Virus record (IMG/VR): IMGVR_UViG_3300005534_000001
Location: 28,528-92,527 of that record
Source of the DNA: a virus
DNA length: 64,000 nucleotides
Direction: 5' to 3' (one strand)
The notes below the pieces were generated by a model, which saw only the letters and a list, made by a program, of their open reading frames with translations, did no database searches and was not told the DNA's origin. The position numbers and the translations under genes were made by a program. Below, piece by piece: positions 51,540-51,994 of the stretch (positions are counted from its first letter, which is position 1; each line of letters starts with the position of its first letter).

Positions 51540-51613
51540 TGGTCGGGCTGGTCGTAATCGAAACGACGTCTTACGATCCCAAATCGTAGGCTTGACCTTC
51601 CAGCTACAGCCCG
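51540..51613 (-). tRNA. tRNA-Pro (TGG), with encoded CCA
   Basis: 74 bases. Acceptor CGGGCTG/CAGCCCG, T-arm GTCGT-TTCGATT-ACGAC with the normal T54-T55-C56, anticodon loop TTTGGGA in a 5-base-pair stem (TACGA/TCGTA). The D-stem has three good pairs and the loop keeps GG at 18-19. It provides codon CCA in Pro, and unlike its neighbours has a standard elbow. Confidence 0.85.
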
Positions 51614-51651
51614 ACATTGCCGATTACCGACTTACGTAATCGGGTAATTCA

Positions 51652-51727
51652 TGGTGGACCCGGCGAGTTCCGCCCTCGCTGCCTCCTGATTGCAAAACAG
51701 GCGCTCTCCTAATTGAGCTACGAGCCC
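51652..51727 (-). tRNA. tRNA-Ala (TGC) with altered T-loop
   Basis: 76 bases. Acceptor GGGCTCG/CGGGTCC keeps the G3-U70 alanine identity pair; A73 and CCA encoded. Anticodon loop TTTGCAA. D-stem GCTC/GAGC with loop AATTAGGA, and T-stem GCGAG/CTCGC with loop GGCGGAA. Position 55 is G rather than U, 54 is G and 58 is G. The D-loop reads A18-G19 in the usual eight-base alignment. T31-T39 is mismatched. Confidence 0.85.
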
Positions 51728-51737
51728 ACATTCGAAT

Positions 51738-51813
51738 TGGAGCCGAGAGTCGGAATTGCACCAACGACATCTCCTTTACAAGAGGAGCGCTCTACTGTCT
51801 GAGCTATCCCGGC
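51738..51813 (-). tRNA. tRNA-Thr (TGT) with A18 and G55
   Basis: 76 bases. Acceptor GCCGGGA/TCTCGGC, U73 and CCA encoded. Anticodon loop CTTGTAA in stem CTCCT/AGGAG. D-loop AGACAGTA gives A18-G19 and no GG anywhere. T-loop TGCAATT in stem GTTGG/CCGAC gives T54, G55, C56, A58. All other parts look functional. Confidence 0.9.
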
Positions 51814-51900
51814 AAAACATTGGCGGCCAAAAAGCTGGCAAACAACCTCACGTCATGGAATTTCAGGTTCCATTCCGTATTCGCGATCTGCCCGCCAAAA

Positions 51901-51994
51901 TGGAGGAGAGTGCAGGATTTGCACCCGCGTATGCCGGGTGCTCCGACATTCGCCAGCTTTCAAGGCTGGTGCCTTACTACTCGGCCAACTCTCC
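51901..51994 (-). tRNA. tRNA-Ser (TGA) with A18 and G55
   Basis: 94 bases, class II with a long variable arm (seven-pair stem). Acceptor GGAGAGT/ACTCTCC, U73 and CCA encoded. Anticodon loop CTTGAAA in stem CCAGC/GCTGG. D-arm GCC-GAGTAGTAA-GGC gives A18-G19. T-loop TGCAAAT in stem GCGGG/CCTGC gives G55. Its 5-prime end overlaps the last 18 bases of the upstream protein gene. Confidence 0.9.

Follow-up and report, generated by a model that had tools for sequence, protein, structure and literature searches.

The stretch of DNA analyzed here, 64,000 nucleotides in full and referred to as the window, comes from a 92.5 kb virus record (IMG/VR) with P22-like head genes, including portal, major head and head-closure families. 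The portal is ~40% identical to those of P22-like phages, and a search for relatives of the window phage via its helicase gave no match. The minus strand of the window carries four tRNA genes, Ser(UGA), Thr(UGU), Ala(UGC) and Pro(UGG) (Table 1), each with a full cloverleaf and an Rfam RF00005 score (47.5-60.2 bits) well over the gathering cut-off of 29 bits. ARAGORN calls the Pro, Thr and Ser genes and overlooks Ala.

Table 1. Features of the tRNA cluster, in window coordinates.
Feature	Position	Strand	Elbow bases and other attributes	Evidence
tRNA-Ser(UGA)	51901..51994	-	long variable arm; A18 G19 / U54 G55 C56; CCA encoded	ARAGORN; RF00005 56.3 bits; sequence read
tRNA-Thr(UGU)	51738..51813	-	A18 G19 / U54 G55 C56 A57 A58; CCA encoded	ARAGORN; RF00005 60.2 bits
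tRNA-Ala(UGC)	51652..51727	-	probably A18 G19 G20 (usual numbering) / G54 G55 C56 G57 G58; G3-U70; CCA encoded	RF00005 47.5 bits at 51655-51727; stems and loops base by base
Inverted repeat CCGATTAC / GTAATCGG	51614..51651		in the Ala-Pro intergenic spacer; possible hairpin for processing or termination	
tRNA-Pro(UGG)	51540..51613	-	canonical G18 G19 / U54 U55 C56; internal control	ARAGORN; RF00005 54.8 bits

Read directly from the sequence, the D-loop AGACAGUA and T-loop UGCAAUU of tRNA-Thr, and the D-loop ...GUAGUA and T-loop UGCAAAU of tRNA-Ser, both give A18 G19 and G55, and tRNA-Ala, with D-loop AAUUAGGA and T-loop GGCGGAA, likewise has G55. Position 18 of tRNA-Ala is probably A by the usual numbering (A18-G19-G20); an alternative numbering with G18-G19 and position 20 absent is possible but less likely. 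The canonical G18 and U55 are thus replaced at both positions in Thr and Ser, and in Ala by G55 and a probable A18; G19 and C56 are present in the window tRNAs, and the elbow of tRNA-Pro is normal (GG and UUCG). The original prediction had read this change, together with the T-loops, anticodon types and coordinates, as we find them, and its description of otherwise sound molecules also holds on a base-by-base check: stems, G19-C56 and encoded CCA are intact in the A18/G55 tRNAs, and in tRNA-Ala 7/7 acceptor pairs and 5/5 T-stem pairs form, G3-U70 among them.

The nearest named homologue of the window tRNA-Thr is the tRNA-Thr(UGU) of Bacillus phage G, 82.5% identical over the match, and those of the window tRNA-Ala are the Ala tRNAs of Roseobacter phage DSS3P8 and Sinorhizobium phage Phosso; all have a normal GG / TTC elbow, and A18/G55 is absent from these nearest named phage tRNAs. 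Since the nearest named homologues are of the same isotype and have the normal elbow, copying of a single parent tRNA into several anticodons does not account for the change, for Thr and Ala at least.

The T-loop of tRNA-Ala is also altered at 54 and 58 (G54, G58). This combination is rare; it recurs with G55 in two tRNAs (Asp, Glu) of the L290 array and is found in a few canonical tRNAs as well. T-loops with A54/U58 (AGCGUUA) recur in arrays.

Linkage of positions 18 and 55

IMG/VR was scanned with one degenerate Thr/Ala-like tRNA pattern in which bases 18 and 55 were varied, base 57 being fixed as A whenever 55 was G and allowed to be A or G whenever 55 was U, and the matching stretches comprise 102 with A18/G55, three with G18/G55, nine with A18/U55 and more than 120 with G18/U55. 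All tRNAs in the fetched loci were called with ARAGORN, and the seed-pattern matches were then excluded. Because the loci were fetched via seed patterns, they give no estimate of how common the class is in the population; the part independent of the seeds is the coupling test, which uses non-seed tRNAs. With position 18 assigned by rule (the first GG of the D-loop in an allowed place or, failing that, AG), the non-seed viral tRNAs divide into 151 A18/G55, 12 A18/U55, four G18/G55 and 1051 G18/U55 (odds ratio ~3300), and the corresponding cellular counts are 167, 1, 6 and 175. Several of the ten G18/G55 calls have a D-loop with AGG, which should probably be numbered A18-G19-G20 as in the window tRNA-Ala, and ARAGORN may overlook the oddest class members, as it does that gene. 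The linkage of the two positions is far past chance. Judged from these sequences, the coupling is strong but not absolute, because some A18/U55 tRNAs exist (22/1935).

Trees of the Thr, Phe and Met tRNAs were built with positions 18, 55 and the anticodon masked. In branch-independent comparisons on supported branches, position 55 changes with position 18 in 4/4 cases for Thr, 4/4 for Phe and five or six out of 6 for Met, the last figure depending on random pairing, and no comparison runs in the opposite direction; these trees rest on ~75 bases, and the supported branches cover just 14 of 73 independent pairs. Close homologues that differ at both sites are found, for example, in Omnitrophota (tRNA-Phe, L339 vs L331) and Planctomycetota (tRNA-Thr, L338 vs L170). 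The survey supports the original prediction of a co-selected exchange, as opposed to decay: changes at 18 and 55 accompany each other in nearly every case, across many isotypes and in both viruses and cells.

Among the surveyed members of the A18/G55 class C56 is present in 531/531, and the constancy of G19 is by construction, as G19 was used to locate position 18. A57 occurs in 69% of the class vs 23% of the canonical tRNAs in the same contigs. tRNA-Ser is nearly absent from the class, accounting for 2/531 members vs 62/714 canonical tRNAs in the same contigs (p ~2e-13); the window supplies one of these two, and its tRNA-Ser is thus the rarest piece of the window set. The tRNA most often canonical in A18/G55-rich contigs is Met(CAU) (13 cases).

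Two minor observations concern these isotypes. The tRNA-Leu, which has a long variable arm as well, does not share the exclusion seen for tRNA-Ser. Met(CAU) tRNAs, several of them initiator-like by eye, often retain G18/U55 in contigs whose other tRNAs have almost all switched (L250, L344, L095, L342, L297, L105 and others), with exceptions in L285 and L095.

Viral and cellular carriers

The viral members of the class span nearly all amino acids. The 97 viral contigs with a seed include 71 that hold both elbow kinds and 25 that hold solely A18/G55, and at least two A18/G55 tRNAs are present in 35 of them. Some arrays are nearly pure, with A18/G55 to canonical ratios of 18:0 in contig L018 and 17:3 in contig L095, vs A18/G55 in only 4/118 contigs and 5/627 tRNAs of the set fetched with the normal pattern. 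In comparisons with named phages the L095 array has no match, and the matches of the L018 array are mostly annotated tRNA regions. Clusters of many isotypes are a familiar feature of phage genomes, and the arrays described here resemble them in this respect; they differ in that some are almost wholly A18/G55. In viral contig L104 two A18/G55 tRNAs (485-562 and 1456-1533) have the anticodon UUA, which reads the stop codon UAA, and are possible suppressor tRNAs.

A genome scan found at least 116 A18/G55 matches in species genomes, and the listed carriers include Elusimicrobia, Omnitrophota, Patescibacteria, DPANN archaea, Mycoplasmataceae, Planctomycetota and Verrucomicrobia. Among the relatives sampled for three of the carriers the pair is rare (2/60, 2/80 and 1/75); its distribution is therefore patchy, which speaks against fixation across whole cellular lineages. 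The pair occurs in cells in two patterns, as lone chromosomal tRNAs with ordinary neighbours and as many-isotype arrays in Planctomycetota and Verrucomicrobia contigs. Dense arrays that are mostly A18/G55 were observed in L250, L285, L342, L344, L254, L243, L317 and L354 (Planctomycetota, Verrucomicrobia and one unassigned MAG contig).

Protein synthesis requires tRNAs for both Phe and Cys. In a termite-gut Mycoplasmataceae MAG, for which 35 distinct tRNAs were read, the sole tRNA-Phe found is A18/G55, as are the sole Phe and sole Cys tRNAs found in a Parcubacteria MAG and the sole tRNA-Phe found in an Omnitrophota MAG, all three being drafts from which a second tRNA-Phe could be missing. Given that requirement, the A18/G55 pair very probably supports translation, unless all three drafts miss a second gene.

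The TruB_N domain is encoded in 15/18 carrier genomes, a set which includes the Mycoplasmataceae genome and leaves out the Parcubacteria and Omnitrophota MAGs with the only-found Phe tRNAs; the three genomes without a match are drafts. Loss of TruB is therefore not required for A18/G55, and it is ruled out as a general driver. The suggestion in the original prediction of a phage-specific device is not supported by these results, as the same pair is found in only-found chromosomal tRNAs and most of the carrier genomes checked encode TruB.

A probable second construction of the elbow

We consider it likely that the window tRNAs are translation-competent and that the contact between their D- and T-loops is a second coordinated solution, with A18·G55 in place of G18·U(Ψ)55. 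The two positions switch jointly and repeatedly in viruses and cells, and G19-C56, G53-C61 and, usually, U54-A58 are retained. Residue 18 of a tRNA inserts between residues 57 and 58 and makes contact with residue 55 (PMC4810234). In the UGAAA T-loops of the FMN riboswitch an adenosine intercalates between loop bases 4 and 5 (PMC3764141), and T-loops that act as adenosine receptors make a trans sugar-edge/Hoogsteen contact with a guanosine at loop position 2 (PMC11363276). By analogy with these solved RNAs of the same loop type, the change would turn the T-loop into a UGCRA loop of the riboswitch type, which would take an adenosine between bases 57 and 58, and A18 would be held by a sheared (trans sugar-edge/Hoogsteen) contact with G55 at loop position 2. 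G18 would be ill-suited to G55, and A18 to U55, so that either change alone would be unfavourable and the two would be exchanged jointly. A18 with U54-G55-C56-R57-A58 would thus be the adenosine-receptor T-loop combination in a tRNA, which would account for the rarity of either change alone.

The likeness to the riboswitch loops lies in U at position 1, G at position 2, purine-A at positions 4-5 and an intercalating A, and the difference in the 7-base tRNA T-loop, whose position 3 (C56) pairs with G19. The window tRNA-Thr and tRNA-Ser fit the combination of a U-G-N-R-A loop and an intercalating A (UGCAA with A18), and the GGCGG of tRNA-Ala misfits at positions 1 and 5. With the canonical elbow (G18-Ψ55, G19-C56, U54-A58) the A18/G55 tRNAs have in common the cloverleaf, G19-C56, G53-C61, mostly U54-A58, the CCA and RF00005 scores over the cut-off; they depart from it in the joint change to A18 and G55, with which Ψ55 and Gm18 are impossible. 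The analogy makes it most likely that this is a tRNA elbow built on a T-loop subtype already known from riboswitches. Such tRNAs would have a normal outer elbow without Ψ55 and would not be substrates for enzymes reading G18 or U55. Phages appear to have gained them in two ways, through switches of individual tRNAs and through carriage of whole arrays already switched.

It is very improbable that the A18/G55 tRNAs instead serve outside translation, akin to the EF-Tu-avoiding cell-wall tRNA-Gly of staphylococci. Staphylococcus aureus does have non-proteinogenic tRNAs with replaced sequence elements (PMC9976931), and to that extent the two cases are alike, but the staphylococcal one concerns a single amino acid and a cell-wall role, whereas the A18/G55 class covers nearly all amino acids and, by genome content, takes part in translation, with the only-found Phe and Cys tRNAs of some genomes among its members; the window tRNAs are Thr, Ser and Ala isotypes, not glycine tRNAs with EF-Tu-avoiding changes. 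Decay, sequencing error or chance, which would make these pseudo-tRNAs that had lost their elbow bases, is barely credible, for although tRNA-Ala goes unseen by ARAGORN and has a T-loop that is odd at 54 and 58 too, it is opposed by full stems, encoded CCA and scores of 47-60 bits, by the strict two-site coupling over hundreds of tRNAs and by the only-found A18/G55 tRNAs of cells.

G18 and Ψ55 are regarded as constants of tRNA, and the original prediction had called the G18-U55 pair universal, which is an overstatement given that a natural alternative to this pair recurs. The A18/G55 pair is probably a working second way of folding tRNA, and not damage, because it recurs in other phages and, in some bacteria, in the only-found tRNA for an amino acid. 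An alternative pair that has evolved repeatedly in nature indicates that there is another way to construct the elbow, one that does without pseudouridine 55. These natural variants are ready material for probing the roles of Ψ55, TruB and elbow-reading enzymes and would be useful for orthogonal tRNA design. Programs that expect a TTC loop count too few tRNAs of this kind, the window tRNA-Ala, overlooked by ARAGORN, being a case in point. We found no report of A18 with G55 in a tRNA in the literature searched, outside which most subscription journals lie, and priority is thus not established.

Retention of the A18/G55 pair

TruB needs the motif 53-GUUYRANYC-61 (PMC7912444), which none of the corresponding segments of Thr (GUGCAAUUC), Ser (GUGCAAAUC) and Ala (GGGCGGAAC) contains, in agreement with the original prediction that G55 is not a TruB substrate. 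TrmK requires G18 and U55, and the G18U-U55G double mutant is not rescued (PMC9801127). From these requirements, A18/G55 tRNAs are expected to be without Ψ55 and to go unrecognised by enzymes needing G18 and U55. Neutral drift, stability without modification and evasion of host factors are readings of why the pair is kept, and all are compatible with the A18·G55 elbow proposed above.

Neutral drift, in which a slightly costly double switch from G18-U55 to A18-G55 is now and then fixed and passed on through exchange of phage tRNAs, bringing no benefit, is a real possibility that falls somewhat short of probable. It agrees with the sporadic occurrence of the pair among the sampled relatives of cellular carriers and with the variation between lineages in which isotypes have switched. 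The near-pure arrays, however, hint at more than drift, as their presence in unrelated contigs is hard to reach via independent neutral switches, though a founder array and subsequent exchange would suffice.

It is rather unlikely that the pair is kept because it makes the elbow stable when Ψ55 and Gm18 are absent, an advantage where modification falls short, as during burst synthesis in infection or in reduced genomes. Ψ55 is precluded by G55, and many cellular carriers belong to small-genome lineages (Patescibacteria, DPANN, Mycoplasmataceae), but Planctomycetota and Verrucomicrobia are carriers too, with two Verrucomicrobia genomes near 7 Mb, just one to three tRNAs have switched per genome, and, as described above, most carrier genomes keep TruB_N.

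Evasion seems to us unlikely; here A18/G55 would be selected in phages because it hides their tRNAs from a host nuclease, a modification enzyme or a quality-control step that recognises G18, U55 or Ψ55. The original prediction suggested such escape, or an altered use by EF-Tu or the ribosome, as purposes that the exchange might serve. The TruB and TrmK requirements given above are in its favour, as is the contrast between near-pure viral arrays and the scarcity of the pair in normal-pattern contigs. Yet cells use A18/G55 in their own tRNAs, including only-found Phe and Cys tRNAs, so that the pair is not simply a phage countermeasure; moreover, the mixed composition of most viral contigs means that most phages leave many tRNAs exposed, and the analysis turned up no nuclease that reads the elbow.

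More speculatively, and with a good deal of doubt, prokaryotes and phages may use two interchangeable elbow codes, G18/U55 and A18/G55, with some mobile arrays carrying elongators nearly all in the second, TruB-independent code and invisible to host enzymes or defences reading the first; tRNA-Ser and often the initiator would stay in the first code as their partners require.

Other rare elbow variants were also observed. A few tRNAs combine C55 with G18 (T-loop TCCGANT) in L089, L087, L091, L109 and L347, three of them in the viral contig L089, and the termite-gut Mycoplasmataceae genome (L352, G001) has apparent coordinated changes at 19-56, for example A19/U56 in Ala and C19/G56 in Asp.
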